The position numbers and the translations under genes are program-made. The notes beneath the pieces were generated by a model. It worked only from the letters and a program-made list of their open reading frames with translations, made no database searches and was not told where the DNA came from. Below are positions 1 through 60,838 of a DNA stretch of 64,000 nt, one piece after another. Position 1 is the first letter of the stretch. Each line of letters starts with the position of its first letter. The stretch is from Phycicoccus sp. Root101 (lineage in GTDB: Bacteria; Actinomycetota; Actinomycetes; Actinomycetales; Dermatophilaceae): NCBI RefSeq assembly GCF_001426245.1, contig NZ_LMCM01000009.1, positions 310,001 to 374,000 of the forward strand. Reading direction: 5' to 3'.

Positions 1-1752
1 GTCGGCGCCGGCGGCCCGGGCCTTCTCGTAGTCGGTGACGTTGGCGAAGTTGCCCGCCGACCGCAGCAGCTCCTGGCGGCGGACCATCTCACCGTGCAGG
101 GCGTCCTGCATGCGGTCGACCAGGCTCAGCTCCTGCCCGAGGTTGGTGATCACGGCCGAGACGTGCGGCATGTCCGCCATGCCCGCGAACGTCGCACCAC
201 CCTTGAAGTCGACCAGGACGAAGTTCAGGGACTCCGACGAGTGCGTCATGGCGAGCGCCAGCACCAGGGTGCGCAGCACCTCGGACTTGCCCGAACCCGT
301 GGCACCGATCACCAGGCCGTGCGGGCCCATGCCCTGCTGGGCGGACTCCTTGATGTCGAGCGAGACGACCTGTCCGTTGGAGCCCAGGCCGATCGGCACG
401 CGGAGCCGGTCACGCTGCAGGCGGGGCCGCCAGGCAGCCTCCGGGTCGTAGTCGCGGACGTCGCCGAGGCCGAGCAGGTCGACGAGCTCGGTGGAGCTGG
501 TCATGGCGTCGCGCCGCTCGGGCTCGGCACCGGCATACAGGGGGGCGAGGCGGCGGGCGGCCGCCTCGGCCTGCACCAGCGAGAGCTGGTCGGCGTACCC
601 CTGGGCGGGGTCGGAGGTGAGGGTGATGATCTGCATCGGCACCCGGCCGGCGTAGGGACCCGAGCGCTGCGCGTTGCCGAGGGCGAGCCGCATCCGCCCC
701 TCCTGGGTCAGCTCGTCCCACCGCTCCGGCAGGTGCAGCACGGTCACGCCCATGACCCCGTCGTCGGTGACGATCGCGTTGCCCGGGGGCACCTCGCCGC
801 CGTCGACGACGATGAGCACGTGCGGCATGGTCGGCTGCTCGGCCGGGCCGAACCGCGGCCGGTCGGCGAGGTCGGCGGGCAGCATCGGCTCGAGGTCGGA
901 CAACGACGTCGCGAGCATCCGGGCCGGACCGACGCCGTCCCGCTCACGCTGGCTGTGGGCGTGCGGGAGCCACTTGACCCACTCCCACTCGGGCAGCGCG
1001 TCGGCCCCGGAGACGATGGCGATCTGGAGCTGGTCGGGGGCGTGCTGGGCCGCTGCGGCGGCGACCAGGGCACGGGCGAGGGCACGCGTGGGTTCGGCGT
1101 CGCCGGTGACCTCGATGCGCGAGAAGTAGGACAACGACACCGAGGCGGGCAGGTCCGGCTGCACCCGGTGGGTGGCGAGCAGGCGGTGCAGCGCCGAGGC
1201 GGCCACGGGGTCGAGCTGGGCCATCGGCGCGGTCTCCGGCGCCTCCAGGGTGATGCACAGCGGCTGGTTGGTGCGACCGAACCGGACCCGCAGGAAGTCG
1301 TCGTCGCTGGCGGAGCGTTCCCAGACGCGGGTGCGCTCCTCGCAGAGGGCGGCGAGCGCCTCGGGGGCCGGGTTGTTCCAGAGGGCTGCGGCCCGTTGGC
1401 GGTTGGCGGCCTCGCGGACGGTCTGGCGCACCTCGCCGAGGTAGGCGAGGTACTCGCGGCGGGCCTCGATCACCCCTGCGGTGTGCTGCTGGCGCTGGCG
1501 GTACCCGTTGACCCCGACGAACCCGAGCGAGGCGACGAGGAACATGCCACCGGCGATGTAGCCCTTGACCCCCGGCGAGGACAGCGCCACGAACGCGATG
1601 GAGCCGACGCTGCCGAGCATCGGCACCGCGTTGAGCAGCAGGCCGCTCACGCCCTCGCTCGGCGTGATCTCCGGCGGCGGCTGCAGGACGATCCGGCCCG
1701 ACGGCACCTCGGGCGCCTCTTCTCGAGGTCCCCGTCGCAAGGTCACTGACAT
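1..1752 (-). CDS. eccC: EccC, type VII secretion ATPase (N-terminal part, cut by window edge)
   Basis: Membrane-anchored FtsK/SpoIIIE-type ATPase that drives and gates ESX (type VII) secretion and recognises substrates. The 584 visible codons begin at an ATG preceded by GAGGAGG and run off the left edge; family members are about 1,300 residues, so nearly half is here. Two hydrophobic segments lie near residues 39-57 and 62-80, then a cytosolic stretch and the first ATPase domain. Its Walker A motif GATGSGKS contains Lys489 and is followed by the stretch LVDFKGGATF. The later ATPase domains, one of which binds substrate, are outside the window. It diverges from the first EccD-like gene across a 225-bp gap. 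The family assignment is secure; which ESX subtype this is cannot be told from this part. Confidence 0.93.
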   Translation of the reverse strand, partial: MSVTLRRGPREEAPEVPSGRIVLQPPPEITPSEGVSGLLLNAVPMLGSVGSIAFVALSSPGVKGYIAGGMFLVASLGFVGVNGYRQRQQHTAGVIEARREYLAYLGEVRQTVREAANRQRAAALWNNPAPEALAALCEERTRVWERSASDDDFLRVRFGRTNQPLCITLEAPETAPMAQLDPVAASALHRLLATHRVQPDLPASVSLSYFSRIEVTGDAEPTRALARALVAAAAAQHAPDQLQIAIVSGADALPEWEWVKWLPHAHSQRERDGVGPARMLATSLSDLEPMLPADLADRPRFGPAEQPTMPHVLIVVDGGEVPPGNAIVTDDGVMGVTVLHLPERWDELTQEGRMRLALGNAQRSGPYAGRVPMQIITLTSDPAQGYADQLSLVQAEAAARRLAPLYAGAEPERRDAMTSSTELVDLLGLGDVRDYDPEAAWRPRLQRDRLRVPIGLGSNGQVVSLDIKESAQQGMGPHGLVIGATGSGKSEVLRTLVLALAMTHSSESLNFVLVDFKGGATFAGMADMPHVSAVITNLGQELSLVDRMQDALHGEMVRRQELLRSAGNFANVTDYEKARAAGAD

Positions 1753-1842
1753 GGTGGTGTGCGCCCTCCTCGGCGTTCGTGCCCGTCCCGCCGGACGTCG
1801 CTGCCTCCCCCGGGTCGGCAGGCGTCCGCCCACAGCGGTGCC

Positions 1843-1908
1843 AACCTATCGCGTGGTGGTGGACGAACGGTGCAGTCTCGTCCTTCCCGGACAAACAGGC
1901 TGTAGGGT
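1843..1908. promoter_or_regulatory. Divergent promoter region between eccC and the EccD-like gene
   Basis: Two TANNNT -10 hexamers face opposite ways. TAGGTT on the minus strand (1848 to 1843) would serve eccC with a leader of about 85 nt, and TAGGGT on the plus strand (1903-1908) would serve the EccD-like gene with a leader of about 60 nt. Neither has a clear -35 box. This is an inference from sequence alone. Confidence 0.4.
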
Positions 1909-1977: not shown

Positions 1978-3513
1978 TTGAGCGAGGACTCGCACCGCAT
2001 CTCGCTGCTCGCCGACGACCGCCGCTACGACCTCGTCGCCCCGGCCAACGCCCAGGTGGGCGACCTCCTGGCCGCGCTCGGCATCGCCCCGCGCAACAGC
2101 CCGTATGCCGTGGCCACCCCTGCGGGGCGCGTCATCGCCCTCGGTGAGGTGCTCGGTGACGCGGTGCCGGAGGGCACCCTGCTCACCGTCATCCGGGCGA
2201 CCACCCACGAGGTGACCCGCGACGTCCTCAACTTCGACCGGTCCCCCGTCGCCGGTGGTGCCCGCTCGCCCGAGGGCCAGGGTGGCCGCCAGGTCGAGGC
2301 GTCGGAGGCCACCGTGTCGCGACGCGCGCTGGCCGAGGCGACCCGCCGCCGCGACGACCTCGCCGTGCCGGCACCGGTGGACGACGCGGGGCTGGCAGCA
2401 CCGGTCGTGCGCACCACGTCGCCGGTCCCCGTGGCGACGGCGACGCTGCTGCGCTGGGTCGGCGCCGGGCTCGCCGTGGCGGCCGTCACCGTGCTGGCCC
2501 CCGGGGTGTTCCGGGCCCACGCGACGCCCGACCCCCTCGTGGCCGGCGCTGCCGCCGCCCTCCTGCTCCTGTCAGGGCTCGCCCTGGCGACCGACCACGC
2601 CGCGTCGTCGGCGGCCCGCCTCTCGCGCCTCGCCGCGCCGCTGCTGGGATTCGCGGCAGGGCTGTCCCTGCCCGTGGCCGCGACCCCCAGCGCCGGCCGC
2701 ATCTCCCTGATCGCGGCCTGCACGGTGGCGACCGCGCTCGCCGGGGTCGCCCGGATCACCGGCGGGCCCCTCGACCGCGCCTCCCGCGCGGCGATGACGG
2801 CCCTCGCCGTGGTGGGGGGCCTCGCCGTCGTGGGGGTCCTGCTGGACTGGCCGGCGTTCGCCGTCGCCGCCGTGGTCGCCGGGCTGGTCCCCGGTGCCGT
2901 CCGGCTGCTGCCGTCCTTGGGCTTCGAGGTGCCCGACGAGCAGCTGGTCGACGTCGACCGGCTGTCGACGACCATCTGGACCGCGCGCGAGCAACGTCGA
3001 CGCCGGTTCCGTCGGCTGCGCGTCGCCGAGGTCGACACGGGGTTCCACGCCGCCCGCGAGACCGTCGCCGCCGGCACGGCGTGGGGGTGCCTGCTCGCCC
3101 CCGTGGCCCTGGTCGTGGTCGTGGCGACCCCGGGGCGCTCGGGCTGGTCCACGTGGGGCACGGTCGGCCTCTGCGCCAGCATCACGGTCGCCCTCGGGTT
3201 CCAGTCCCGCACGGTGCGGGACCGCCTCCCCCGCTACGCGCTGCTCACCACCTCCGCCCTCGCCGCCCTCCTCGGCACGTATGCCGCGGGCCGGCTCGTC
3301 GGGGTGGGCATCGGGGTGGCCCTGGCGTGCACCGCCGTCGCGCTCGGCCTGGTCGCCGTCGCGGCTGCCGTCGCCCTCGGGCGCGGGTGGCACTCGACCC
3401 GGCTCTCGCGCCTCGCCGACATGCTGGAGGGACTGGCCGTCGTCCTGAGCCTGCCCGCGGCGGCGCTGGCCGCGGGAGGGTTCGAGACCATGGCCCGGAT
3501 CGCCGCGAGCTGA
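1978..3513 (+). CDS. EccD-like type VII secretion membrane protein (first of two)
   Basis: Putative inner-membrane channel subunit of the ESX apparatus. The start chosen is TTG, placed behind the ribosome site AGAGGGGGAGG; a longer reading from an upstream ATG has no such site. The 511-residue product has an N-terminal domain of about 80 residues fitting the ubiquitin-like fold of EccD, a charged linker to about residue 145, and then eleven hydrophobic helices, with a basic cytosolic loop between helices 6 and 7. A second protein of the same architecture is encoded from 11060. Two EccD-type genes in one locus is unusual; in mycobacteria one eccD gene supplies both copies of the dimer. The next gene starts 10 nt downstream, so the two are probably co-transcribed. 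Confidence 0.75.
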   Translation: MSEDSHRISLLADDRRYDLVAPANAQVGDLLAALGIAPRNSPYAVATPAGRVIALGEVLGDAVPEGTLLTVIRATTHEVTRDVLNFDRSPVAGGARSPEGQGGRQVEASEATVSRRALAEATRRRDDLAVPAPVDDAGLAAPVVRTTSPVPVATATLLRWVGAGLAVAAVTVLAPGVFRAHATPDPLVAGAAAALLLLSGLALATDHAASSAARLSRLAAPLLGFAAGLSLPVAATPSAGRISLIAACTVATALAGVARITGGPLDRASRAAMTALAVVGGLAVVGVLLDWPAFAVAAVVAGLVPGAVRLLPSLGFEVPDEQLVDVDRLSTTIWTAREQRRRRFRRLRVAEVDTGFHAARETVAAGTAWGCLLAPVALVVVVATPGRSGWSTWGTVGLCASITVALGFQSRTVRDRLPRYALLTTSALAALLGTYAAGRLVGVGIGVALACTAVALGLVAVAAAVALGRGWHSTRLSRLADMLEGLAVVLSLPAAALAAGGFETMARIAAS

Positions 3514-4757: not shown

Positions 4758-5504
4758 TCACACCCCGAACTGGTTCTGCGCGGCCTCGTCCATCCGGGAC
4801 CCGTTGTAGGCCGCGAGGCCGCCGGAGATGCCGTTCAGGGTGAGCTTGATGACGTGCATGATGTTGACGACCGCGTAGATCGCGTCGATGAAGCGGTCGA
4901 TGGTGTCCAGGACGCGGCGGATCAGCTTGACGGCCTTGTCGAACCGGTCCCAGAAGCTCTTGATGTGGATCGCGATGTCAGCCGCCCCGACGAGCCAGCC
5001 CACCACGGGGACGGACGCCTCGATGATGAGCCGTTCGAGGATGTCGCTGATGAACGACACCAGCGTCGCGATGCCGAGGGCCGCGGACTTGGCCACCTCG
5101 ATCAGGCTCCCGGTGAGCTCGCCGATGAGGTCGCACCCCTCGGCATACGTGGCGTAGTTCTGCCCGAGCTGCACCATCCGCGAACGGAAGGCCTCCGCGG
5201 CCTCGCCGTCCCAGACGTCGACGGTGTTGACGTCGAGCTCGGTGAAGTTCTCGCCGACGCCCTTGCACATCTGGCCGGCGTCCGCCCAGCCCTGCTTGGC
5301 GACACCCATCAGGCCCCAGTCGCCGCACAGCGGCTTGACGAGCTCCACCAACGGGTCGGTGCCGAACGCCTGTCGGCAGAACCCCAGCAGGTGGCCGATG
5401 AGGAAGCCGCAGCTCGACTCGAACTCCTCGATGAAGTCGTCGTCGGGTGCGACGGCCAGGCACTGGTCGTAGCCGGACGGGTCGACCTTCTCGTAGACGC
5501 TCAC
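4758..5504 (-). CDS. WXG100-like putative type VII secretion substrate, cysteine-rich
   Basis: A 248-residue helical protein. The GTG start overlaps the stop codon of the upstream gene (GTGA) and sits 6 nt after a run of six G; a GTG one codon earlier is possible. A W-D-G turn near residue 100, inside VDVWDGEAAEAF, is flanked by helices in the WXG100 manner. A long hydrophobic stretch follows (about residues 135-180), then an amphipathic helical tail. Six cysteines are spread over the first half, which is unusual for this class and could form disulfides after export. No enzymatic domain is visible. It is probably exported as a partner of the 317-residue protein encoded just upstream. Confidence 0.65.
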   Translation of the reverse strand: MSVYEKVDPSGYDQCLAVAPDDDFIEEFESSCGFLIGHLLGFCRQAFGTDPLVELVKPLCGDWGLMGVAKQGWADAGQMCKGVGENFTELDVNTVDVWDGEAAEAFRSRMVQLGQNYATYAEGCDLIGELTGSLIEVAKSAALGIATLVSFISDILERLIIEASVPVVGWLVGAADIAIHIKSFWDRFDKAVKLIRRVLDTIDRFIDAIYAVVNIMHVIKLTLNGISGGLAAYNGSRMDEAAQNQFGV

Positions 5505-8054: not shown

Positions 8055-9485
8055 TCAGCTCCCCTCCCCTGGTTGTGCGGCCGCCGGACGGGCGGCCCCC
8101 TTGCGACTGACGACGAATGCGGTTCCTGCGGCGAGCACGACCACCAGCACGACGACCCACACCCAGGCCGGGACCCCGCCGCCGTCACCCGACGGCTGCG
8201 CGGTCGCGGAGCCGTCCTTGCCGGAGGTACCTGCCGGTGCCGAGCTCGTGGACGAAGACGTGGACGAGGACGCCGACGAGGACGGCGAGGCGGTGGACGA
8301 CGGCGACGACGTGGCATCGTCGGCCAGCACCCCCGAGGCGACCTCCTCGGCGGTCGGGCCGAGGCCGTTCGCGGTGCGCAGCAACGGGTTGGTGTCCGGG
8401 TAGGACGTCGGGTCGACCCGCACGGCGTCAGCGGGGGCGAAGATCCCCCAGCCGAAGCCCGTCCTCGTCGAGTCCTGGATCTTGGGGAAGCCGGACCCGA
8501 CCCTGCGGTAGGCCGCGATCCACCCCTTCGCGCCGCTGTTGCTGGTGCCCTGCTTCATGCCCGGGTTCTTCAGGGCGGCCTGCAGGACCTGGTCCGCGGT
8601 CGCCCCGGGGTACTTCGACCAGTAGGCCGCCAGGCCGCCGGCGACCAGGGGCGCGGCGAACGACGTCCCGTCGACCAGCTTGCCCTGGGCCACCCACGTC
8701 CCGCCCCGGTGCTCGCCCAGGACGAGGCCGACCCCGGGGGCGCAGAACGCGATGCCGTACCCGATGTCGTTGGCGCCCCGGGGATCCAGCTGCGCCTTGC
8801 TGTCGCAGGCGTTCACCGCGACGACGCCGTTGTATGCCGCGGGGAAGCTCACGGCCCCGTCACCGGTGGCCGCGACGACGATCGCGCCCGCGTGCTGGGC
8901 GAGCAGGATGGCCCGCTTCTCGTCGCCGCTGGTGCTGCTCGAGCCGAAGCTGAGGTTGACGATCCTCGCCCCGTCGGCGAGCGCCTTCTCCATCGCGATG
9001 AGCAGGGGTGAGCGCTTGTCGCCGTCGTCCTTCACGCCGCAGAGGTTCTTCTCCCCCGTGCCGATGCTGTAGTGGCGCAGGGTGACCTCGGGGGCGATAC
9101 CGCGCACGCCCGGCGTGCCACCGGAGCGCGCACCCGTGCCGACGATCACCTGGGCGATCTCCGTCGCGTGGTCGGCGTCGGCGTCGGCGGCTGTCGCCGG
9201 TGCCGTGCACGGGGTGAACACCGAGGCGATGCGGCCCTTGACGTCCGCGGCGTCCGGGTCGATGGTCCCGTCGATCACCGCCACGGTCACGCCCTTGCCC
9301 TTCGCGCCGGCCGCCGCGAGGTCGTCGAAGCCCATCGCCGCTGGCCACCACGGCGTCGGGTTGGCCGCCTCGGCCGACGACGCCAGGGGCGAACCGGCCC
9401 CCGCGAGCCCGGGCAGGGCGACGAGGGCAGCGGCCACGACGGCCACCAACGACGTCCGCACGACGGATCGGGTGGGACGGTTCAC
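8055..9485 (-). CDS. Mycosin-like subtilisin protease (MycP), divergent copy
   Basis: Subtilase of the ESX-associated mycosin family, acting outside the membrane. The 476-residue product starts at GTG 10 nt after GAGGAGG. It has an N-terminal signal segment to about residue 30, Asp72 in VAVIDGTID, His106 in DADHATEIAQ, Ser275 in DGTSFAAPL, a Ser/Thr-rich spacer (about 395-430), a C-terminal transmembrane helix (about 443-463) and a short basic cytoplasmic end, which is the mycosin layout. It departs from the family in two places. The usual H-G-T is H-A-T, and the oxyanion-hole Asn of A-G-N appears replaced by Asp209 (ATGDG). It may be weakly active or mainly structural. It sits inside the substrate operon, apart from eccB. 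Confidence 0.85.
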   Translation of the reverse strand: MNRPTRSVVRTSLVAVVAAALVALPGLAGAGSPLASSAEAANPTPWWPAAMGFDDLAAAGAKGKGVTVAVIDGTIDPDAADVKGRIASVFTPCTAPATAADADADHATEIAQVIVGTGARSGGTPGVRGIAPEVTLRHYSIGTGEKNLCGVKDDGDKRSPLLIAMEKALADGARIVNLSFGSSSTSGDEKRAILLAQHAGAIVVAATGDGAVSFPAAYNGVVAVNACDSKAQLDPRGANDIGYGIAFCAPGVGLVLGEHRGGTWVAQGKLVDGTSFAAPLVAGGLAAYWSKYPGATADQVLQAALKNPGMKQGTSNSGAKGWIAAYRRVGSGFPKIQDSTRTGFGWGIFAPADAVRVDPTSYPDTNPLLRTANGLGPTAEEVASGVLADDATSSPSSTASPSSSASSSTSSSTSSAPAGTSGKDGSATAQPSGDGGGVPAWVWVVVLVVVLAAGTAFVVSRKGAARPAAAQPGEGS

Positions 9486-11059: not shown

Positions 11060-12409
11060 GTGACCGTGAGCACTGGCAGTTCTGGCACCACCACGTCGCT
11101 CATCCGGCTGTCGGTCACGGCGGGGACGCGCCGCGCGGACCTCGGTCTGCCGGGCGGCATACCCGTCGCCGAGCTGGTGCCCGAGCTGGCCCGCGAGCTG
11201 GGGCAGCTCGATCCCGCCACGGCAAGCAGGGGGTTCCGGCTCGTGCGGCACGACGGGATCACCGTGGAGCCGGACCGCAGCCTCGCCGCCCAGGGGGTCG
11301 AGGACGGGTTCGTCCTGTCCCTGGAGCCGGCCGGTGACCCCGTCGAGCTCAAGGTCTACGACGACGTGGTCGAGGCGGTCGCCGACCTCGTGGAGTCCTC
11401 CTTCGCACCGTGGACGCCCGAGAACTCTGCGCGGACGGCCCTCGGTGCCGCGGTCGCCCTGTTCGGCGCGGGCGCCGTCGCGCTCGTGACCGCCCGCACG
11501 AACGGCGTGCTCGTAGTGGGCATGGCCGGTGCCGTCGCCGTCCTGCTCGTCATCGCCGCCGCCGTCCTTTCCCAGGCCCGCCGCCAGTCCGTGTCCGGTG
11601 CTGCCCTCGCCCTGGCCGCGAGCGCGTATGCCGCCGTGGCCGGCTTCGCCGTGCCGCTGGACGGGACCGTGTGGGGACGCCCGCTGATGGTCGCCGGACT
11701 CGGCGCCGCCGTGGTCGGGGCCCTCGGGGTGCTGGTCGTCCGAGAGCACCGTCAGGTGGTGCTGGTCGGCCCCGTGGTCGGGCTGGTCCTGGCCGTGGCC
11801 GGCGCCCTGGTCGCCTACGGCGGCTTCCCGGTGGACGGCGTGGCCGCGGTGGTCTTCGCGGTCGCGATCATCGCCGGGAACCTGTTCCCGTGGTTCGCCG
11901 TGTCGTCGAGCCGGCTGACGACCCACCCGCCTCGCACGGACGCGGAGATCTTCGCCGACGCGCCAGCCGTCGACAGCCGCTCGGTCCGCCGCCAGGTGGT
12001 CGCTGGCCACGACCTCATGCTCGGCCTCGGGATCGCCGCGGGGCTCGTGGCGCTGCTCACCGCGCCGTTCGTCGCGCGCACCGGCTGGCTGGGACCAGTC
12101 CTGGGTGCCGTCGGTTTCGCCGCGGTCCTGCTGCGCACCCGCCACAGCCGCACCCACGCCACCGTCCTGGTGGCCATGGTCGTGGGCATCCTCGGCCTGT
12201 CGGTGGTCGGGGTCAGCGCCGCCCTGGCGCACCCGTCCTGGCGACCGCTGCTGGGTGTCGCCCTGGCCGGAGCCGCCGCGGTCGTCGTGGGCCTGGCGCT
12301 GGTGGCGCCGCGCTCGAGGGTCCGTCTCGGCCGCGTCGCGGACGCCGTCGACGGCGTCTGCCTCGTGGCGCTGCTGCCGCTCGCAGCTGCCGCGGCCCAC
12401 GTGTTCTAG
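11060..12409 (+). CDS. eccD: EccD, type VII secretion integral membrane protein (second of two)
   Basis: Inner-membrane pore component of ESX secretion. The 449-residue product has an N-terminal ubiquitin-like domain (about 1-85) and eleven hydrophobic helices from about residue 125 to the end, which is the EccD layout and length. The GTG start is preceded by GGGAGGGG. It diverges from the esx operon and is followed by a hairpin. The EccD-like gene at 1978 shares the architecture but has a longer linker. The two could form a heterodimer or belong to alternative complexes. Confidence 0.9.
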   Translation: MTVSTGSSGTTTSLIRLSVTAGTRRADLGLPGGIPVAELVPELARELGQLDPATASRGFRLVRHDGITVEPDRSLAAQGVEDGFVLSLEPAGDPVELKVYDDVVEAVADLVESSFAPWTPENSARTALGAAVALFGAGAVALVTARTNGVLVVGMAGAVAVLLVIAAAVLSQARRQSVSGAALALAASAYAAVAGFAVPLDGTVWGRPLMVAGLGAAVVGALGVLVVREHRQVVLVGPVVGLVLAVAGALVAYGGFPVDGVAAVVFAVAIIAGNLFPWFAVSSSRLTTHPPRTDAEIFADAPAVDSRSVRRQVVAGHDLMLGLGIAAGLVALLTAPFVARTGWLGPVLGAVGFAAVLLRTRHSRTHATVLVAMVVGILGLSVVGVSAALAHPSWRPLLGVALAGAAAVVVGLALVAPRSRVRLGRVADAVDGVCLVALLPLAAAAAHVF

Positions 12410-18847: not shown

Positions 18848-19479
18848 ACCCTGCGCAGCCCGTCGGGCTGGACGGCGACCCACGGGACGTCCCAGCCCGA
18901 CAGGCGCAGGGCCCGGCCCGCGAACCGGTCCTCGTCGAGCAGGGTGACCTGCCCGGTCGCCGGGTCGTAGACGTCGAGCACCCGGTCGCCATCACCCGGC
19001 AGCACGAGGGTCACGTGCCGGGGCAGGGTGGTGCTGCCGATGTAGAGCAGTGCCGGCTCCCCCTCGGCCACCACCTCGAGCAACCTGGCGTGGGCGGTGC
19101 GGAGCCCGGCGGTGGTGAGCGGGCGCACCACCCGCAGCTCGTAGCTCGCGCCCTTGCGGGCGGCCCCGAACTCCAGCTCCTTGCGGGCGCCCCACGGGGG
19201 CGTGCCGAGGGCCCGGGGCCACGGGAGGTTCAGTCGGCGTCCCCCGGCGAACAACCGGTTGGTGCGTGCCATGACCACCCGCTCGTATGCCGCGAAGCGC
19301 TCCTTCTCGGTCGCGCCCGCAGGGGCGTCACCCCGCGGCTCCTGGCCCGTGGTGATCCACCGCGCGAAGGCGGGGTTGACGAGCATCCGGGCCACGGTGA
19401 GACAGGCCGACCCGCAGGTGACCGGACTCTGCTGCACCGGTCCCACGTCGCCGCTGCCCAACCGGTACCCCATGGCCAT
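18778..19479 (-). CDS. Possible papain/C39-like cysteine protease, unassigned
   Basis: A 233-residue protein with no signal peptide. Near the N-terminus is [15 protein letters not shown] (Q-x5-C-G), the oxyanion Gln plus catalytic Cys arrangement of papain-fold and C39 peptidases. A His in LPRHVTLVL and an Asp in VYDPATGQV, about 150 and 170 residues later, complete a plausible triad with the spacing of that fold. The start is the first of two in-frame ATGs behind AGGATGGG. The last 23 codons lie antisense to the end of valS. The substrate is unknown, and the enzymatic role is an inference from three motifs. Confidence 0.6.
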
Positions 19480-33501: not shown

Positions 33502-33540
33502 ACGTATGCCGTGTCCCGAATTCCGGGACACGGCATACGT
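33502..33540 (-). terminator. Terminator after tig, stem built from an inverted GTATGCCG pair
   Basis: Perfect 17-bp arms (33502-33518 and 33524-33540) with an AATTC loop, in which the dispersed octamer GTATGCCG and its complement form the base of the stem. It lies 37 nt after the tig stop. Confidence 0.85.
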
Positions 33541-43284: not shown

Positions 43285-43495
43285 CTGACCAATCCTGCCA
43301 CTGCCCCCGCGCCGACCGCACCCGAGGCCCGGAGGAACGCTCCGGGGCCGGGCTGGTTGACGTCACGGCAACCTGACCGGGGCCGCGACGCGGACCCGGG
43401 AGGCGACGCGGCGCCATACCCACCGTTGCGGGAACACCCCTCCGCGCGTGCGAGGATTGGCGCCGAAACGTGGACCAACCCCTGCAGGAGATTCA

Positions 43496-47383: not shown

Positions 47384-47416
47384 GCCGACGCCCGATCCGG
47401 CACCCCGCGCCATACC

Positions 47417-50070: not shown

Positions 50071-51509
50071 GCTCGCCCAGGCCTGCACCGGAGCAGGTTG
50101 ACGTCGGTGACGCACCCACGCGGGTCGCGCCGCCACGGCCCGGCGTCTTCGCGCCCGCCTACGCCCTGCTGTCCGTCGCCCTCGTCGCCCTCATCACGGT
50201 GATCGCCTTCGAGGGCATGGCCGTGTCCACCGCGATGCCCGAGGCGGCCCGTGAGCTCGACGCCGTGCGGTCCTACGGGTTGGCCTTCTCGGTCATGCTC
50301 ACCACGCAGCTGCTCGGCATCGTGCTTGCGGGGGTCTGGGCCGACCGGGCGGGTCCCCTTCCCTCGTTGTATGCCGGCCAGCTGCTGTTCGGGGTCGGCT
50401 GCGCCGTGTGCGGCTCGTCAGGCTCGTTCGGCCTGTTCCTGGCGGGCCGTGGCGTGGCCGGTCTGGGCGCCGGGCTCATCATCGTCGCCGGGTACGTCGT
50501 GATCGGCCGCGCCTACCCGGAGTCGTTGCGCCCCAAGGTGTTCAGCGTCATCTCGGCCGCCTGGGTCCTTCCCTCCCTGCTCGGCCCACCGGTCGCCGCG
50601 TGGGTGACGACGACGTGGTCGTGGCGCTGGGTGTTCTGGCTCGTCGTGGCACCCGTCGTGGTGGCGCTGCTGGCGGTGGTGGCCCGGCGTGGGCAGATCG
50701 CCGCCGCCGACGAGGGGGTCGCTGCCTCGGGCCGCGACCACCGCCAGCACGCCCGGGCCGCCTGGCTCGGGGTCGCCATCGCCGCCTCCGCGGGCGCCGT
50801 GCAGTGGGGCACGCACTCGCTGGAGCTCCGGTGGTCCGCGCAGACCCTCGTGGCGCTGGTGGGCGTGGTCGGGCTGGGGCTGAGCGCGCCGCTCCTGCTG
50901 CCGCCGGGCACCTGGGTCATGCGCCGCGGGCTGCCGTCGGTGATGGTGGCGCGGTTCCTCCTGACCTGCTCCTTCTTCGGCACCATCACCTACATCCCGC
51001 TCATGCTCGTCAACGAGCGCGGCCTGTCGCTCGGTGCGGCCGGCACGATCCTGGCCGTCGGGTCCCTCGGCTGGTCGGCGGGTTCGTGGGTCCAGGGCCG
51101 CGACCGCTGGGCCGGCCGTCGCGAGCGACTCGTCTCCGTCGGTGGCGCGCTCCTGTCCACGGGGCTCGTGGCGGTCGTCGCGATCACCCACTTCGCGTGG
51201 AACCCCTACCTCATCGCCCTGGCGCTGGTCGCCTGCGGCACCGGCATGGGGCTCGGCACGGCCAGCCTGTCGGTGCTGTCGCTCACTCTCACGTCGCCGG
51301 CCGACCATGGCTCCACCTCGTCCTCCCTGCAGCTCGCGGACGTCCTGGGCTCGGTCCTCGGGATCGCGGCGGCCGGCGCCGTGTTCGCCGCCCTGCACAC
51401 GGTCGCGGGCCGGGACGTGCCGGTGTACGTGACGATGTGGCTGGGCCTGACGGTCGTCGCCGCCCTGGTCGTCGTCGCCGGTCGGCGCATCGCGCCGCGA
51501 CAGCCCTGA
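50067..51509 (+). CDS. MFS transporter (DHA2/drug efflux type)
   Basis: A 480-residue major facilitator with an N-terminal polar stretch of about 30 residues and 12-14 hydrophobic helices. Motif A is degenerate (GVWADRAGPLP) and a motif C-like GRGVAGLGAGLII occurs around residues 133-145. It is similar in layout to EmrB/QacA drug transporters. The GTG lies in the stop of the phosphodiesterase gene. The substrate is not deducible. Confidence 0.85.
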   Translation: MSSPRPAPEQVDVGDAPTRVAPPRPGVFAPAYALLSVALVALITVIAFEGMAVSTAMPEAARELDAVRSYGLAFSVMLTTQLLGIVLAGVWADRAGPLPSLYAGQLLFGVGCAVCGSSGSFGLFLAGRGVAGLGAGLIIVAGYVVIGRAYPESLRPKVFSVISAAWVLPSLLGPPVAAWVTTTWSWRWVFWLVVAPVVVALLAVVARRGQIAAADEGVAASGRDHRQHARAAWLGVAIAASAGAVQWGTHSLELRWSAQTLVALVGVVGLGLSAPLLLPPGTWVMRRGLPSVMVARFLLTCSFFGTITYIPLMLVNERGLSLGAAGTILAVGSLGWSAGSWVQGRDRWAGRRERLVSVGGALLSTGLVAVVAITHFAWNPYLIALALVACGTGMGLGTASLSVLSLTLTSPADHGSTSSSLQLADVLGSVLGIAAAGAVFAALHTVAGRDVPVYVTMWLGLTVVAALVVVAGRRIAPRQP

Positions 51510-51929: not shown

Positions 51930-52568
51930 TCAGGCGGGGATGCCGCCGCGGATGAGGACGTGCCCGGCCGTCGTCGACAGCCGCGTCCAGCGGCCGTGGG
52001 TCCAGACGGTCACGTCCGACCCCGGTGCGGCGAAGCCGAGGGCGTAGGCCGCGAACGCACCGCCCGCAGGGACTGGCGGCGACGTGGTGGTGAGTCGGCC
52101 CCAGACGTGCCGGCGCAGTGCTGCGACCGCCTGACCACCGGCGTCCGAAGGCGCACCGGAGGCGACCTGCGAAATCCCTTCTCGCGCAACGGCATACACC
52201 TCGTCGGCCGTGACCGAACCCACCCGCTCCCAGCCGCTCCGCGGAGGCGCCATGGCGGCCCATCCGACGCTGACCGTGGTCGGCGGCAGCGACAACGTCC
52301 TGCCGTCGCCGCGAGCGAGCCGGTCGGCCACGGACGCGAGCGACACGGTGGTGTCGACCTCCACGGCCTCGGCGAGGGGCATGGCCCGCAGACCGATGAC
52401 CGCCCCCTCCCCCATCAGCCCGCTGCCGGGCAGGACACCGACGTAGGCGGCCAGGGTGGTGCCGGACGCCTGGAGCCGGATCGCGCCGTCGTCGTCGGCG
52501 GCCTTGGCGCGGGCGACGTAGGTGCGCAGGTCGTCCAGCCCCTGCGCATCGGGGAAGTGCAGGTCCAT
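51930..52568 (-). CDS. Conserved hypothetical protein (Rv2474c-like position)
   Basis: A 212-residue soluble alpha/beta protein without cysteine or signal peptide. It starts in the stop codon of the thioesterase gene (TGATG), so the two are coupled. A hypothetical gene of the same size (Rv2474c) follows the thioesterase Rv2475c in M. tuberculosis, which supports a conserved pair. I see no catalytic motif; pairs of Ala/Gly-rich strands and a WTHGRW segment near the C-terminus stand out. Confidence 0.7.
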   Translation of the reverse strand: MDLHFPDAQGLDDLRTYVARAKAADDDGAIRLQASGTTLAAYVGVLPGSGLMGEGAVIGLRAMPLAEAVEVDTTVSLASVADRLARGDGRTLSLPPTTVSVGWAAMAPPRSGWERVGSVTADEVYAVAREGISQVASGAPSDAGGQAVAALRRHVWGRLTTTSPPVPAGGAFAAYALGFAAPGSDVTVWTHGRWTRLSTTAGHVLIRGGIPA

Positions 52569-53059: not shown

Positions 53060-53094
53060 GGACCCATCCTGTCAGGGGTGTCGGGCCGGCGGCA

Positions 53095-53100
53095 TACGGT
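53095..53100 (+). promoter_or_regulatory. Putative -10 of the RecQ-like gene
   Basis: TACGGT, 7 nt before the ATG; it overlaps a copy of the dispersed octamer (CGGCATAC ending at 53097). Confidence 0.45.
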
Positions 53101-53107: not shown

Positions 53108-55228
53108 ATGGAGACGACCGCTGCGGCCACCGACCTGCACACCCTCGCCACGGGGGTGCTGCGCAGGCTCGTCGGCCGCGACGACGTCGACTTCCGGGAC
53201 GGGCAGTTCGAGGCCGTGCAGGCGCTCGTGGGCGACCGGCGTCGCGTCCTGGTCGTCCAGCGCACGGGATGGGGCAAGTCCGCGGTCTACTTCGTGTCGA
53301 CCGCGCTGCGCCGCGAGCAGGGCGCCGGACCCACCGTGATCGTCTCCCCCCTGCTGGCGCTGATGCGCGACCAGATCGCCGCCGCCCAGCGCGCCGGCAT
53401 CAGGGCCGTCACGATGAACTCCGCCAACGCCGACGAGTGGGGCCGGGTCTCCGCGGCGCTGGCAGCCGACGAGGTCGACGTCCTGCTGGTCAGCCCCGAG
53501 CGGCTCAACAACCCGCGGTTCCGCGACGAGCAGCTGCCGGACCTCGCCCGGCGCTGCGGGCTCCTGGTCGTCGACGAGGCGCACTGCGTGTCCGACTGGG
53601 GCCACGACTTCCGTCCCGACTACCGCCGCATCCGCGACCTGCTCACGACGCTGCCCTCCGACACCCCCGTGCTGGCGACGACGGCGACCGCGAACGCGCG
53701 GGTCGTCACCGACGTCGTGGAGCAGCTCGGTGCCGGTGGGCACGACGTCCTGACGCTGCGTGGCGGCCTGGCTCGCGAGTCGTTGCGGCTCGGGGTCATG
53801 AGGCTGACCTCGCCCGAGCAGCGCCTCGCCTGGCTGCTGGCCCACCTCGACACGCTGCCCGGCAGCGGCATCGTCTACGCCCTGACCGTCTCGGCCGCCG
53901 AGGACGTCGCCGTGGCCCTGCGCGAGGCCGGCCACGAGGTCCGTGCCTACACCGGGCGCACCGACCCGGCCGACCGCGAACGCCTCGAGGCGATGCTGCG
54001 CGACAACCAGGTCAAGGCCCTGGTGGCGACGAGTGCGCTGGGCATGGGGTTCGACAAGCCCGACCTCGGGTTCGTGCTGCACCTCGGGGCACCGTCGTCG
54101 CCGGTCGCCTACTACCAGCAGGTCGGTCGTGCCGGCCGCGCCACCGAGCGCGCCGACGTGCTGCTCCTGCCGGGCCCCGAGGACAAGGACATCTGGGCCT
54201 ACTTCGCGTCGGCGTCGATGCCGCGCCAGGAACAGGCCGACGCCGTGCTGACGACCCTGGCCCAGTCGCAGAAGGCCCTCTCCACCGCAGCCCTCGAGGC
54301 GGTCGTCGACATCCGTCGCACCCGCCTCGAGCTGCTGCTCAAGGTGCTCGACGTGGACGGTGCGGTCCGCCGGGTCCCCGGGGGTTGGACCTCCACGGGG
54401 GTGCCGTGGACCTACGACGCCGAGCGCTACGAGCGGGTCAGCGCCGCCCGGGTCCGCGAGCAGGACCTCATGGTCACCTACGAGCAGACCGGCGAGTGCC
54501 GCATGGCGTTCCTCCAGGAGTCGCTCGACGACGACACCGCCCTGCCGTGCGGCCGGTGCGACTCGTGCGCCGGGGTGTGGTTCCCGACCGAGATCCCCGA
54601 CACCGCCGTCACCACGGCACGCGGCCGGCTCGAGCGGGCCGGCGTCGAGCTCGAGGCCCGCGCGCAGTGGCCGTCCGGCATGGACCGCCTGGGCGTCCCC
54701 CTCAAGGGCAAGATCGCCCCCGACGAGGGTATGGCGCCGGGCCGGGCCGTCGCCCGGCTCACCGACCTCGGGTGGGGCCAGCAGCTGCGCACCCTGCTGC
54801 GGGCCGACGACGGGCCGGCGCCCGCCGAGCTGCTGCGGGCCTGCGTCCCGATCCTGCGCGACTGGGACTGGGCCGAGCGCCCGGTGGCGATCGCCTCGGT
54901 CCCCTCGCGCCGCCGCCCCCAGCTCGTCGAGTCGGTCGCACAGGGCCTGGCCGAGATGGGTCGGTTGGAGTGGCTCGGACCGATGGACCTGGTCGAGGGC
55001 GGCCCGACCGGCGAGTCCGGCGGGAACAGCGCGTTCCGCCTCGCGGGGGTCTGGGGACGCCTGGCCCCGTCGGCGACCCAGCGCGAGGCGCTCGCCCGTC
55101 TCTCGGGGCCGGTGCTGCTGGTCGACGACGTGGCCTCGTCGCGCTGGACGCTGACCGTCGCCGCCCAGGAGCTGCGGCGGGCCGGGGCGCCCGGCGTGCT
55201 GCCCTTCGTCCTCGCGCTAGAAGCCTGA
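53108..55228 (+). CDS. RecQ-family DNA helicase with C-terminal phosphoribosyltransferase-like domain
   Basis: ATP-dependent 3'-5' DNA helicase, 706 residues. Walker A is RTGWGKS with Lys57 and the DEAH box is VVDEAHCVSDWG (156-159). Helicase motifs V and VI (ATSALGMGFDKPDLG, QQVGRAGR) are followed by a zinc-binding region ending CGRCDSC near residue 480. The last third is not a standard HRDC domain. It ends with LLVDDVASSRWT at about 671, the PRPP-binding signature of phosphoribosyltransferases (V-D-D-V/I-x-S/T-x-x-T). It overlaps the convergent yczE-type gene by 12 bp. Confidence 0.88.
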   Translation: METTAAATDLHTLATGVLRRLVGRDDVDFRDGQFEAVQALVGDRRRVLVVQRTGWGKSAVYFVSTALRREQGAGPTVIVSPLLALMRDQIAAAQRAGIRAVTMNSANADEWGRVSAALAADEVDVLLVSPERLNNPRFRDEQLPDLARRCGLLVVDEAHCVSDWGHDFRPDYRRIRDLLTTLPSDTPVLATTATANARVVTDVVEQLGAGGHDVLTLRGGLARESLRLGVMRLTSPEQRLAWLLAHLDTLPGSGIVYALTVSAAEDVAVALREAGHEVRAYTGRTDPADRERLEAMLRDNQVKALVATSALGMGFDKPDLGFVLHLGAPSSPVAYYQQVGRAGRATERADVLLLPGPEDKDIWAYFASASMPRQEQADAVLTTLAQSQKALSTAALEAVVDIRRTRLELLLKVLDVDGAVRRVPGGWTSTGVPWTYDAERYERVSAARVREQDLMVTYEQTGECRMAFLQESLDDDTALPCGRCDSCAGVWFPTEIPDTAVTTARGRLERAGVELEARAQWPSGMDRLGVPLKGKIAPDEGMAPGRAVARLTDLGWGQQLRTLLRADDGPAPAELLRACVPILRDWDWAERPVAIASVPSRRRPQLVESVAQGLAEMGRLEWLGPMDLVEGGPTGESGGNSAFRLAGVWGRLAPSATQREALARLSGPVLLVDDVASSRWTLTVAAQELRRAGAPGVLPFVLALEA

Positions 55229-55954
55229 GCCGGCCTCGTCCGGCACCTCGGCAGGGGCCTCGGGTACCGGCTCGGCGGACCGGTGCGGTGCCGTGCGGGC
55301 GTCGGCCGGGGCCTCGAGCGGAACGGTGAACAGCGGCAGGAACAGCTGCACGGTGGGGCCGATGAGCACGGCATACAGGACCGTGCCGATGCCCACGACG
55401 CCACCGAGGGCGAACCCGACGACCAGGACGGTCACCTCGATCGTGGTGCGCACCAGGCGGATGCTGCGCCCGGTCCGGCGGACCAGTCCGGTCATCAGCC
55501 CGTCGCGCGGTCCGGGACCGAACTGGCTGCCGATGTAGAGCGCGCCGGCCAGCCCGTTGAGCACGATGCCGCCACCGAGCAGCAGCACGCGGAGCACCAT
55601 CGCCGACGGCCGGTCGAGCAGCGCGAGGGTCGCATCGGTGACCAGGCCGATGACGACGACGTTCGCGATGGTCCCGAGCCCCGGCACCTGCCGCAGCGGG
55701 ATCCACAGGAGCAGCACCGCCACCCCCACGATGATGGTCACGGTGCCGAAGCTCACGGGCAGGTGACGGGCGATGCCGTAGTGGAAGACGTCCCACGGGT
55801 CGAGCCCGAGTCCGGCCCGGATGAGCATGCCCATCGAGACCCCGTAGAGGGTGAGCCCGACGAACAGCTGGGCCAGGCGGCGGGTCGTGTGTCCCGCGCG
55901 GAGCTGCTGCAGCGGCGTCATCGGGGTGAGGGTGGTGCGCGTCATGGTCCCCAT
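55217..55954 (-). CDS. yczE: YczE family membrane protein
   Basis: A 245-residue protein with five hydrophobic helices and the GLGLDPWDVFHYG signature of the YczE/YyaS (COG2364) family, of unknown transport or sensory role. The ATG at 55954 has AAGGA 6 nt before it; another ATG is three codons inside. It diverges from a MocR-type regulator, the usual YczE-YczR pairing. The C-terminal 35 residues are polar. Confidence 0.85.
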   Translation of the reverse strand: MGTMTRTTLTPMTPLQQLRAGHTTRRLAQLFVGLTLYGVSMGMLIRAGLGLDPWDVFHYGIARHLPVSFGTVTIIVGVAVLLLWIPLRQVPGLGTIANVVVIGLVTDATLALLDRPSAMVLRVLLLGGGIVLNGLAGALYIGSQFGPGPRDGLMTGLVRRTGRSIRLVRTTIEVTVLVVGFALGGVVGIGTVLYAVLIGPTVQLFLPLFTVPLEAPADARTAPHRSAEPVPEAPAEVPDEAGSGF

Positions 55955-57515: not shown

Positions 57516-57521
57516 TCCGCT

Positions 57522-58475: not shown

Positions 58476-58942
58476 TGGTCGAGCGCGAGGCATCCCGGTG
58501 GGTGGTCGACGCGCTGCGCGCCGAGGACCACGAGACGTGGACGGCGCTGCACCGCGGGTACCTCGACTTCTACGAGGTCACCGACCCCGAACGGGTCTCC
58601 CCCGCGATCTGGGCCTGGTTGACCGACCCCGACCACGAGCTCGAGTGTGTCGTCGTCCGCCCCGCCCCGGGCGCGCAGCCGGTCGGTATGGCGCACTTCC
58701 GCCCCTTCGTGCGACCACTCGCCGCCGCGACGGCCTGCTTCCTCGACGACCTGTTCGTCGCCCCGGCCGCCCGCGGCTCGGGCGCCGTGGACGCGCTGCT
58801 CGCCGCCCTTCAGCAGGTCTCCAGAGACCGGGGCTGGACCCAGGTTCGCTGGATCACCAGGGAGAGCAACGCCCGGGCGCGGTCGACCTACGACCGGCTG
58901 GCCAGGCAGACCGACCTCGTGACCTACGAGCTGCCCGTCTGA
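58475..58942 (+). CDS. GNAT family N-acetyltransferase
   Basis: A 155-residue acetyltransferase with the GNAT core: a strand ending CFLDDLFVAP, then the acetyl-CoA loop ARGSGAVDALL (Q/R-x-x-G-x-G/A) near residue 108, and the C-terminal ARSTYDRLAR. The ATG overlaps the stop of tesB (TGATG). The acceptor is unknown. It converges on treZ with a 21-bp gap. Confidence 0.9.
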   Translation: MVEREASRWVVDALRAEDHETWTALHRGYLDFYEVTDPERVSPAIWAWLTDPDHELECVVVRPAPGAQPVGMAHFRPFVRPLAAATACFLDDLFVAPAARGSGAVDALLAALQQVSRDRGWTQVRWITRESNARARSTYDRLARQTDLVTYELPV

Positions 58943-58963
58943 CCGCGCACGACTCGCAGGAGG

Positions 58964-60838
58964 TCAGCCGACGCGGACGATCGCCGCAGTGCGCGGCGGC
59001 AGGTGGACCGACTGCTCCTTGAGCTTGGTCTGGCCGGGCTCCCACGCCAGCACGACCCCGGTGGGTGCCGCGTCGAGCGGCACCGTCCAGCGCGAGCCGG
59101 CCAGGTTGACCACGGTGCGCAAGGAGCCACGGCGCATCACGAGCCACTGGCCGCGCTCGTCGAAGTCCACCTCGACGAGGTCGAGCCGCCCGTCGCTGAG
59201 CGCGAACTCCTTGCGCCGCAACGCGATCAGGTCCCGGTACCACGAGAGCATGCGCGCGTGCGGTGCGAGGCGGACCTCGTCCCACCGCAGCTGGGACCGG
59301 CGGTAGGTGGCCTCGTCCTGCGGGTCCGGGACGTCGTGCGCCGCCCAGCCGTGCGACTCGAACTCCCGGCGACGCCCCTCCGTGACGGCCTGCGCCATCT
59401 CCGGCTCCTCGAAGTCGGTGAAGAACTGGAACGGTGTCGTGGCTGCCCACTCCTCGCCCATGAACACCATCGGCGTGAAGGCTGACGTGAGGTAGAGCGC
59501 GGCGCCGATCGCCTGCTGCGAGGGACTGACCAACGCCGAGATGCGTTCTCCGACAGCGCGGTTGCCCACCTGGTCATGGGTCTGGAGGTAGGCGACGAAG
59601 CGCCGCCCGTCGACCTTCTCGCGATCCACCTCGGCACCCCAGTCGTGCCCGCGGAAGCTGGACCAGGTGCCGTCGTGGAGGAACCCACGAGTCAGCGTCT
59701 TCGCCAGGACGGCGAGCGGCCCACCGTCCGGGAGTGCGCGGCTGTGCCCGGCGAAGTCGGCGTAGTAGCCCTGGGTCTCCCCCGTGAGCGTCACGTGGAG
59801 GGCGTGGTGGACGTCGTCGTCCCACTGGGCGTCCATGCCGCGGCCACCGGCACCGGTCGGCGTCACCATCATCGCGTTGTTGAGGTCGCTCTCGGCGACC
59901 AGGTGCAGGGGCCGTCCGAGGGTGCGACCGAGCTCGGCCACCTCGTCGGCCAGCTGCGCCAGGAGGTGGGTCGGGGAGTCGTCGCGCAGCTCGTGGACGG
60001 CGTCGAGGCGCAGCGCGTCGACGTGGAAGTCGGCGAACCACCGCAAGGCGTTGTCCACCATCCACCGGCGCACGGCCTCGCTGTCCGGACCGTCGAGGTT
60101 GAACCCGGCCCCCCACGGCGTCGGGTGCGCGTCGGAGAAGTAGGGCCCGAACCGGGACAGGTAGTTGCCGACCGGCCCGAGGTGGTTGTACACGACGTCG
60201 AGGCAGACGCCGAGCCCCAGCCGGTGGCACTCGTCGACGAAACGCTGCAGCGCCGCGGGGCCGCCGTAGACGTCCTCGACGGCCCACGGGCCCACCCCGT
60301 CGTAGCCCCAGTTCCAGCGGCCGGGCCACGCCGAGAGCGGCATGAGCTCGACGACGTCGACGCCGAGCTCCACCAGGTGGGGCAGCCGCGCCTGGGCGGC
60401 GTCGAGCGTGCCCTCCTTGGTGAAGGTCCCCACGTGCAGCTCGTACACGACCGCACCCAGGACACCGAGCCCTTGTTGCGGACCGGCCCAGGTGGCGTCG
60501 TGCCACAGGTGCTGGGAGGCGTCGAACCACCGACTCGTCCCGTGGACTCCGTGCGGCTGGTGCGCCGACCGGGGGTCAGGCGTCAGGTCACCGCCGTCCA
60601 CACGGAAGCCATAGTCCAGGGCCGGGTACGGCGCCATACCGGGGTCACCGCCGGCGGTCACCACACCCGTGGTCGGGCCGTCGGCAGGAACCACGTCTGC
60701 GGGGAGCTCCCAGGCCCACCAGCCCCCGTCCTGCCGCACCAGTGGTGCGGTCGCGGCAGGGCGGTCGCCGAGGGTGAACTCGACGTCGACGCGTTCGGCG
60801 ACCGGCGCCCAGACGGTGACGGTGTGTGCGGAGCTCAT
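58964..60838 (-). CDS. treZ: Malto-oligosyltrehalose trehalohydrolase
   Basis: Last enzyme of the TreY-TreZ route: cuts trehalose from maltooligosyl-trehalose. The 624-residue GH13 enzyme has an N-terminal carbohydrate-binding beta domain (about 1-100) and barrel motifs VYELHVGTFTKEGT, DVVYNHLGP, nucleophile Asp in DALRLDAVHEL and acid/base Glu in HLVAESDLNN. It follows treY by 21 nt on the same strand. Confidence 0.95.
   Translation of the reverse strand: MSSAHTVTVWAPVAERVDVEFTLGDRPAATAPLVRQDGGWWAWELPADVVPADGPTTGVVTAGGDPGMAPYPALDYGFRVDGGDLTPDPRSAHQPHGVHGTSRWFDASQHLWHDATWAGPQQGLGVLGAVVYELHVGTFTKEGTLDAAQARLPHLVELGVDVVELMPLSAWPGRWNWGYDGVGPWAVEDVYGGPAALQRFVDECHRLGLGVCLDVVYNHLGPVGNYLSRFGPYFSDAHPTPWGAGFNLDGPDSEAVRRWMVDNALRWFADFHVDALRLDAVHELRDDSPTHLLAQLADEVAELGRTLGRPLHLVAESDLNNAMMVTPTGAGGRGMDAQWDDDVHHALHVTLTGETQGYYADFAGHSRALPDGGPLAVLAKTLTRGFLHDGTWSSFRGHDWGAEVDREKVDGRRFVAYLQTHDQVGNRAVGERISALVSPSQQAIGAALYLTSAFTPMVFMGEEWAATTPFQFFTDFEEPEMAQAVTEGRRREFESHGWAAHDVPDPQDEATYRRSQLRWDEVRLAPHARMLSWYRDLIALRRKEFALSDGRLDLVEVDFDERGQWLVMRRGSLRTVVNLAGSRWTVPLDAAPTGVVLAWEPGQTKLKEQSVHLPPRTAAIVRVG

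Follow-up and report, generated by a model that had tools for sequence, protein, structure and literature searches.

The octamer GTATGCCG is probably an uptake sequence by which self-DNA is recognized during natural transformation, and which evolved independently in one actinobacterial family. This reading is well supported by features of the genomes: the word has dialects, is predicted to form hairpins behind genes, lacks replication polarity, is conserved between relatives and shows a strand-specific spacing like that of the Pasteurellaceae uptake sequence (USS). On sequence grounds the best reading is that these features mark a third family with a DNA-uptake-sequence system, which would be the first Gram-positive one.

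Occurrence of the octamer in the window

The window, that is the whole stretch of 64,000 nucleotides analysed here, contains 24 exact copies of GTATGCCG, 13 on the plus strand and 11 on the minus strand. The same count had been given in an earlier note on this DNA, and all 24 occurrences of the heptamer GTATGCC are followed by G, as stated there. The note had also put the number predicted from composition at about two. The order-0 expectation is 2.09 and the order-3 expectation 1.68, and 100 dinucleotide shuffles of the window yielded a mean of 0.73 copies and a maximum of 3.

Apart from two inverted pairs, plus-strand copies are located at 2103..2110, 3279..3286, 8832..8839, 11626..11633, 17041..17048, 19285..19292, 23365..23372, 25460..25467, 34843..34850, 37547..37554 and 50369..50376. 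Minus-strand copies lie at 531..538 (the start of this first site is 531, and not 532 as previously given), 5141..5148, 11155..11162, 15769..15776, 22476..22483, 40104..40111, 52190..52197, 53090..53097 and 55369..55376. The sister form GTATGGCG adds 10 further copies, again in agreement with the note. Those on the plus strand are at 16310..16317, 39384..39391, 39871..39878, 54729..54736 and 58686..58693, and those on the minus strand at 23891..23898, 35091..35098, 43412..43419, 47408..47415 and 60632..60639. The copy at 39384..39391 falls within a tRNA-Pro gene (39380-39454), which may constrain it, and may be a coincidence.

Enrichment across the genome

In the whole 4.38 Mb genome, GTATGCCG occurs 1,468 times (727 forward and 741 reverse), compared with 82 times for the reversed control word (36 and 46). 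A sample of 464 kb, consisting of the window and 20 other stretches of the same genome, holds 176 copies where a third-order Markov model predicts 10.9; the frequency does not match the expectation under the model that the note had proposed as a check. The strands are balanced in this sample (89 forward, 87 reverse) and in the relatives G002 (92/82) and G003 (46/38). No replication polarity of the word was found in the stretches read of these three genomes, those of G003 being ten stretches spread along its single 3.94 Mb contig.

The word had been described as independent of reading frame and not a codon effect, and this is borne out. Genes were predicted with a home-made gene caller. Among the 176 copies, which occupy all six frames, 78 and 30 are in the two commonest frames and 21 in the other four, and 47 lie outside called genes. 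Genic copies mostly read TAT-GCC or GCA-TAC, and 91 of the 155 TAT codons of the sample fall within the motif. The density of copies is higher outside called genes than inside them, by 2.1-fold in this genome, 1.9-fold in G002 and 1.75-fold in G003. It bears no relation to local G+C among the stretches of the genome, with no drop in those of low G+C that would point to depletion in foreign DNA.

Inverted pairs of copies at most 60 bp apart were found 8 times in the sample, 9 times in G002 and 5 times in G003. Fifteen of these 22 pairs lie within 200 bp behind the end of a called gene, and four are inside called genes. Most of the inverted pairs are thus predicted terminator-like hairpins behind genes, as in DUS and USS. 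Within the window, a perfect pair (33504+, 33531-) would form an intergenic stem-loop of -29.5 kcal/mol at 33504..33538, 38 bp behind a called minus-strand gene (33577-35190). The second pair (28919+, 28967-) gives an imperfect long stem-loop of -38.8 kcal/mol at 28919..28974, where all called gene ends are more than 200 bp away.

Strand-specific spacing

Copies of GTATGCCG on the same strand avoid each other over a range of 1-2 kb, and copies on opposite strands do not. This was observed in the present genome, G002 and G003. Control words with same-strand spacing as low numbered 1 of 600 in the 464 kb sample, 1 of 45 in G002 and 2 of 536 in G003. For the USS of Pasteurellaceae (AAGTGCGGT), 31 pairs separated by 60-500 bp were on the same strand and 78 on opposite strands, with 79.3 expected of each. 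This likeness, exclusion on the same strand only, is a criterion set in the present analysis and not taken from the literature. When the 20 other motif-rich genomes were pooled, the spacing effect was weaker, and opposite-strand pairs were in excess at 250-500 bp (37 compared to 15.5).

Distribution and conservation among relatives

Counting was extended to the relatives, as the note had advised. Of the 36 genomes of the family, 23 show strong enrichment of the word, with 625-4,724 copies, or 2.5-44 times the control. The same search never gave more than 167 copies in 22 genomes of other families. Likewise, GTATGCCG was strongly enriched in none of 392 genomes sampled from the phylum outside the family, where the highest count was 386, with a control of 176. 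No convincing word was found in 11 of the 36 family genomes. When the motif-poor genomes were searched de novo for words of their own, an excess of GTACGCCG was revealed in G033 and G034, and of GGACGCCG in G020. Both may reflect codon use. Same-strand exclusion is absent for GTACGCCG in G033, where 39 same-strand and 35 opposite-strand pairs were counted.

Conservation, also suggested as a check, was found at orthologous sites. Copies of GTATGCCG are kept at 18 of 27 such sites in G007, 10 of 23 in G010 and 12 of 22 in G003; control words of equal A+T pattern are kept at 25 of 79, 14 of 51 and 7 of 43, respectively.

Dialects of the word

Three genomes have a main word that differs from GTATGCCG by one letter: GAATGCCG in G022 (3,135 copies, control 27), GGATGCCG in G026 (3,816 copies, control 392) and GTATGCGG in G030 (1,204 copies, control 107). 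Where dialect sites of G030 could be aligned, the relative has GTATGCCG in 14 of 33 site-genome pairs, compared to 42 of 51,004 columns. For G022 the figures are 6 of 39 pairs and 60 of 94,432 columns. Among the sites of G026, only 3 of 71 align with GTATGCCG; the sole alignable GTATGCGG site of G028 does not. The positions at which the dialects differ are 2 and 7, with position 6 varying within genomes; G1, A3, T4, G5 and G8 are constant. The general form GTATGSCG proposed earlier holds for the genome from which it was derived, but other family members use other variants. The family shows dialects with a conserved core, partly at shared sites, as in neisserial uptake sequences.

Competence genes and pili

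A search for competence genes had been recommended, and comEC as well as a comEA match were detected in 36 of 36 family genomes. The present genome carries a tad-2-like locus with T2SSE, T2SSF and TadE/Tad domains, one TadE match being below the cut-off; we read it as including a Flp pilin that has no Pfam match. The stretch with this locus also carries a WhiB gene (Pfam PF02467), a type confined, to our knowledge, to actinobacteria; together with the G+C content it points to an actinobacterial host. Loci of a tad-1-like type occur in G002, G005, G014, G018 and G020. Four tad-2 pilin-like genes were found in 8 of 8 motif-rich and 7 of 7 motif-poor genomes, with a partial match in G019, and tad-1-like frames in three motif-rich and two motif-poor genomes, one long frame in G014 being partly matched. 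Proteins resembling Tad minor pilins are present.

Since comEC and comEA (10 genomes) and the tad-2 pilin-like genes (7 genomes) are also found in genomes with no word, these genes do not predict it. Neither T2SSF counts nor tad-2, tad-1 or comEA separate motif-rich from motif-poor genomes cleanly. In 20 kb neighbourhoods of comEC and tad-2, no frame cleanly tracks the word, and the top matches looked like antisense or shadow frames. PilM would accompany a ComP-like receptor. The type IV pilus protein PilM (PilM_2) was found in only 2 of 36 family genomes and is missing from the present one and 33 others, which led us to reject a classical type IV pilus receptor of the ComP or PpdA type.

Comparison with known systems and alternative explanations

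Like GTATGCCG, the USS is a short, non-palindromic word, balanced between strands, with inverted pairs and lineage-specific types (PMC12616744). Both words show same-strand exclusion and opposite-strand independence as measured here. However, the two words are unrelated, the hosts of USS are Gram-negative, and USS exclusion extends over about 0.5 kb compared to 1-2 kb. The DUS of Neisseriaceae (ATGCCGTCTGAA) also has dialects, which differ between related species (PMC3630211), and its inverted repeats act as terminators (PMC12616744). It shares ATGCCG with GTATGCCG, possibly by chance. The DUS receptor, however, is ComP, a minor pilin of the type IV pilus, whose PilM is absent from 34 of the 36 genomes studied here. 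In Micrococcus luteus, transformation depends on a Flp pilus and needs comEA/comEC plus tad loci, and our genome likewise has comEA/comEC and a tad-2-like locus; the text of that paper (PMC4322843) nowhere uses the term 'uptake sequence'. None of the other families sampled shows enrichment of GTATGCCG. Chi of E. coli and KOPS are over-represented octamers too, but both are polar and GTATGCCG is not. KOPS is polar towards dif, and a segregation signal of this kind is disfavoured by the lack of polarity in the stretches of the three genomes.

It is improbable that the word is a Chi-like recombination signal read by an end-resecting helicase-nuclease (RecBCD, AdnAB or other), even though Chi is an octamer as well and orientation-dependent reading would produce same-strand exclusion. 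That spacing does not single out Chi, because it is common to USS. Moreover, the Chi sites in 50 kb of E. coli K-12 are split 1 to 8, whereas GTATGCCG lacks polarity in the stretches read, and neither hairpin pairs nor dialect changes are expected of Chi. RecC is absent from the present genome; only 3 of the 23 motif-rich genomes have it, compared to 7 of the remaining 13. On the side of a Chi-like reader, PDDEXK_1 nuclease domains occur in 36 of 36 family genomes, many of them, among the matches listed, in frames longer than 1,000 aa, a length that in our reading would suit AdnAB. As an observation in itself, the presence of PDDEXK_1 in all 36 genomes is uninformative on the word.

A similarly small chance is given to an intracellular self-marking site of a HIP1-like or mismatch-repair-like kind, recognized by a protein of chromosome architecture, strand discrimination or methylation. 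A per-strand mark would suit the per-strand spacing, and exchange of a modification gene would suit the patchy occurrence. We know of no modification sites that are normally enriched 10-20 fold, as this word is, and uptake sequences are characterized by hairpins behind genes together with dialects at shared sites. Furthermore, GTATGCCG is not palindromic, unlike HIP1 (PMC1939737). Finally, a codon-usage or mutational artefact with no reader is already contradicted and very nearly discounted. The predominance of two codon readings among genic copies would agree with it, but the Markov excess, the copies in every frame and in intergenic DNA, their conservation at orthologous sites, a strand-specific spacing that control words do not share and the lack of such an excess outside the family all argue against it. 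Among the roles in uptake, recombination or segregation first envisaged for the word, the genomic hallmarks favour uptake, and the lack of polarity in the stretches read and the absence of RecC from this genome and 20 of 23 motif-rich ones speak against Chi and KOPS.

A proposed model for tagged uptake

Under the uptake-sequence reading, a putative surface or cell-wall reader would bind GTATGCCG (GTATGSCG in the present genome) on free DNA. The reader would probably belong to a Tad/Flp competence pilus or be fixed to one, and would let tagged DNA reach ComEA/ComEC. With repeated transformation, biased uptake could enrich the word along the chromosome. A shift in the specificity of the reader would then shift the word genome-wide, giving rise to dialects. 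We propose that strand-specific exclusion arises because the reader is orientation-sensitive: within about 1-2 kb of a copy, another would be redundant only if it lay on the same strand.

More tentatively, and with slightly less than even confidence, Gram-positive actinobacteria may represent a third origin of sequence-tagged uptake, with a Tad/Flp pilus; its at least four dialects may form mating barriers that separate genera, and the spacing shared with USS may mean that tags are read one-way. If the uptake reading is true, one actinobacterial family joins the two known to use uptake tags. Such mate recognition in a third family, most of whose members lack the classical type IV pilus, would be a case of convergent evolution. 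The dialects, at least four in number, would provide natural replicates for a receptor search by coevolution, and exclusion confined to the same strand in both GTATGCCG and USS makes the directionality of uptake testable. Frequent natural transformation in the family would also be implied, and a practical route to transform its members suggested.

Abundance and placement of the octamer

Exact counting in the window gave 24 copies of the octamer GTATGCCG, 13 on the forward and 11 on the reverse strand, as the earlier note had stated, and the 10 further sites that it had assigned to a sister form, GTATGGCG (general form GTATGSCG). One GTATGGCG copy lies inside a tRNA-Pro gene (39380-39454) and may therefore be constrained by the tRNA. 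Shuffles of the window that keep dinucleotides yield 0.73 GTATGCCG. Over the whole genome (4,384,879 bases, 12 contigs) the octamer occurs 727 and 741 times on the two strands, compared to 36 and 46 for a control word with its letters in reversed order. In a 464 kb sample of this genome (the window and 20 stretches of contig C1; the own sample below), 176 copies were found, while second-, third- and fourth-order Markov models predict 6.7, 10.9 and 44.9; the proposed excess over third-order expectation is thus confirmed. The octamer is preferentially followed by C (63%) or T (24%) and then by G (68%) in this sample.

The copies are independent of reading frame, as had been claimed, since all frames and both gene strands are used. 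With genes called by a simple script, 78 of the 176 copies read as G-TAT-GCC-G, 30 as GCA-TAC and 21 in the remaining four frames; 47 lie outside called genes. The tyrosine codon TAT is rare, and 91 of the 155 TAT codons of the own sample fall within the motif (55/106 and 31/82 in the relatives G002 and G003). Copies are denser outside than inside called genes, by factors of 2.1 (own sample), 1.9 (G002) and 1.75 (G003). Some copies form inverted pairs closer than 60 bp, with 8 such pairs in the own sample, 9 in G002 and 5 in G003. Of these 22 pairs, 15 follow a called gene end by no more than 200 bp, four lie within called genes and three are in other places. Perfect stem-loops are frequent among them, one example being that at 33504-33538 of the window.

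Alignments, which the earlier note had proposed as a check, revealed that the copies are kept above control words of equal A+T pattern. A site was scored as kept when it carried GTATGCCG or GTATGGCG, whereas control words had to match exactly. The values are 18/27 versus 25/79 for control words in G007, 10/23 versus 14/51 in G010 and 12/22 versus 7/43 in G003. In the comEC region of seven other congeners, where the same own sites recur across the seven comparisons, 31 of 41 sites are kept (26 exactly) compared to 21 of 142.

Strand balance and spacing

Uptake sequences, Chi sites and the segregation signal KOPS were the likenesses suggested in the earlier note. Strand totals of GTATGCCG are equal (89 and 87 in the own sample, 92 and 82 in G002, 46 and 38 in G003), the most uneven 20 kb stretches of the own genome having 5 to 1 and 3 to 7 copies. 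KOPS-like polarity was absent from every stretch read of the three genomes, including ten spread along the single contig of G003, and the suggestion of a segregation-type skew is not borne out there. E. coli Chi, by contrast with the balanced GTATGCCG, is polar (1 to 8 in one 50 kb stretch, too little for spacing).

In all three genomes same-strand copies avoid one another. Summed over distance bins from 60 to 1500 bp, GTATGSCG forms 38 same-strand and 92 opposite-strand pairs in the own sample, where 84.6 would be expected for either kind; the corresponding values are 66 and 121 (107.1) in G002 and 7 and 27 (26.9) in G003. Direct-repeat deletion or gene layout could be invoked; both were rejected because few control 8-mers of similar count reach a same-strand ratio as low as that of GTATGCCG (1/600 in the own sample, 1/45 in G002, 2/536 in G003). 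Pooling the comEC regions of 20 further GTATGCCG-rich genomes gave a weaker avoidance: between 60 and 1000 bp, GTATGNCG forms 82 same-strand and 143 opposite-strand pairs, where 112 would be expected for either kind. From 250 to 500 bp, GTATGCCG shows a surplus of opposite-strand pairs (37 versus 15.5).

The same count was applied to AAGTGCGGT, the uptake signal sequence (USS) of Pasteurellaceae, in 80 loci, nearly all from that family and each selected for containing the extended USS (636 kb, 496 copies). Like GTATGCCG, it is balanced between strands (249 forward, 247 reverse) and displays strand-specific exclusion, with 0 same-strand and 49 opposite-strand pairs within 60 bp (9.5 expected) and 31 and 78 at 60-500 bp (79.3 expected of each). 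Strand-specific exclusion therefore also characterises a word with an established uptake role. In the literature, uptake sequences are described as lacking orientation bias, with even spacing debated (PMC1939737), and as lacking a general orientation bias (PMC2346458).

Distribution and dialect words

Relatives were surveyed in 58 genomes including our own, 36 from its family (f1) and 22 from other families of the order. Within f1, 23 genomes carry 625 to 4,724 copies of GTATGCCG, exceeding the control by factors of 2.5 to 44. Enrichment is weak in G026 (235 versus 47), G029 (293 versus 130) and G030 (196 versus 125), and the remaining ten genomes have 11 to 95 copies. In the 22 genomes of other families the count never exceeds 167 (control 184). 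Four f1 members were part of a phylum sample of 396 genomes: G000, G001 and G193 are rich, G019 is poor; G193 represents a further f1 genus (1,251 versus 191). Among the 392 others the top count is 386 (control 176), and the best ratio seen in those with at least 100 copies is 161 versus 30 (G329). Because rich genomes occupy several deep f1 branches of a LeuS and ComEC tree (40 genomes, LeuS absent for five, several inner nodes weakly supported), GTATGCCG is probably ancestral to f1 and was followed by several losses or changes.

Candidate dialect words were suggested for some genomes by local tallies of words one mismatch away from GTATGCCG, and total counts in the 58 genomes were made for three of them. 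GAATGCCG occurs 3,135 times in G022 (control 27), which retains 1,025 GTATGCCG, and at most 352 times in every other genome. GGATGCCG reaches 3,816 in G026 (control 392) and 260-976 in other f1 members, save G011 with 1,336 (control 310). GTATGCGG reaches 1,204 in G030 (control 107), 459 in G028 (control 312) and 433 in G021 (control 461), the remaining f1 members having at most 208. The main dialect counts are balanced between strands. Local excess was also seen for GTATGACG in G013 (31 versus 1.1) and G014 (28 versus 1.1), and for GTATGGCG in the own genome. Positions G1, A3, T4, G5 and G8 are invariant across the four main words and GTATGGCG.

In the comEC region, dialect sites align with GTATGCCG of relatives in 14/33 site-genome pairs for G030 (column rate 42/51,004), 6/39 for G022 (60/94,432) and 3/71 for G026 (65/94,097), pairs being non-independent since several relatives share one site. 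The single alignable site of G028 there does not coincide with GTATGCCG. Eleven of the 36 f1 members (G011, G012, G016, G018, G019, G020, G023, G024, G029, G033, G034) yielded no convincing word, only 20-60 kb having been read for some of them.

Several local patterns were noted. G033 (stretches L042-L043, L052-L054) and G034 (L044-L045, L055-L057) contain about three to six times as many copies of GTACGCCG and words resembling it as expected, which may reflect a dialect whose fourth letter is C, or else codon use. The leuS stretch of G022 (L124, about 12300-18450) holds eight GTATGCCG, seven on one strand, and may have been acquired from a species that uses the other dialect. G055, from another family of the order, has 1,548 GGATGCCG (control 184), about twice most relatives. 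In G053 (C1, 28082-31265) GTATGCGG recurs every ~61 bases across 3 kb, in what looks like a CRISPR array.

Competence genes and interpretation

Competence genes and a pilin, which the earlier note had advised looking for, were searched. comEC is found in 57 of the 58 genomes and in all 36 f1 members, in each of which a comEA match adjoins it; in the own genome both are confirmed by Pfam (Competence; SLBB and HHH_3). The own genome also has a tad-2-like locus (T2SSE, two T2SSF, TadE, a sub-threshold TadE and a TadE/G-like protein by Pfam), adjoined by a short frame read as a putative Flp. tad-1-like loci were seen in G002, G005, G014, G018 and G020. Transformation of M. luteus requires such a tad-2 locus plus a second one, according to PMC4322843. 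The comEC of the motif-rich G005 (C1, 1517076-1517881) was matched in two pieces in separate open frames, reflecting either a frameshift or a sequencing error. comEC, comEA and tad genes are present alike in GTATGCCG-rich and poor genomes (exceptions: G016 without a T2SSF match, G023 and G024 with two) and therefore single out no reader of the word. The type IV pilus protein PilM was found in only 2 of 36 f1 genomes. RecC occurs in 3 of 23 rich versus 7 of 13 other f1 genomes, an inverse relation that may be due to chance or phylogeny.

According to PMC12616744, and similarly PMC5031613, motifs of this kind are known from no families besides Neisseriaceae and Pasteurellaceae; neisserial dialects are described in PMC3630211. 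Our search of largely open-access literature turned up no description of a comparable word from actinobacteria, and terms such as DUS do not occur in an M. luteus paper (PMC8467076). An uptake-sequence system fits the evidence better than any rival. The data directly reveal a footprint in the genomes, while uptake of DNA bearing GTATGCCG, a receptor for the word and a direction in which it is read are inferred.
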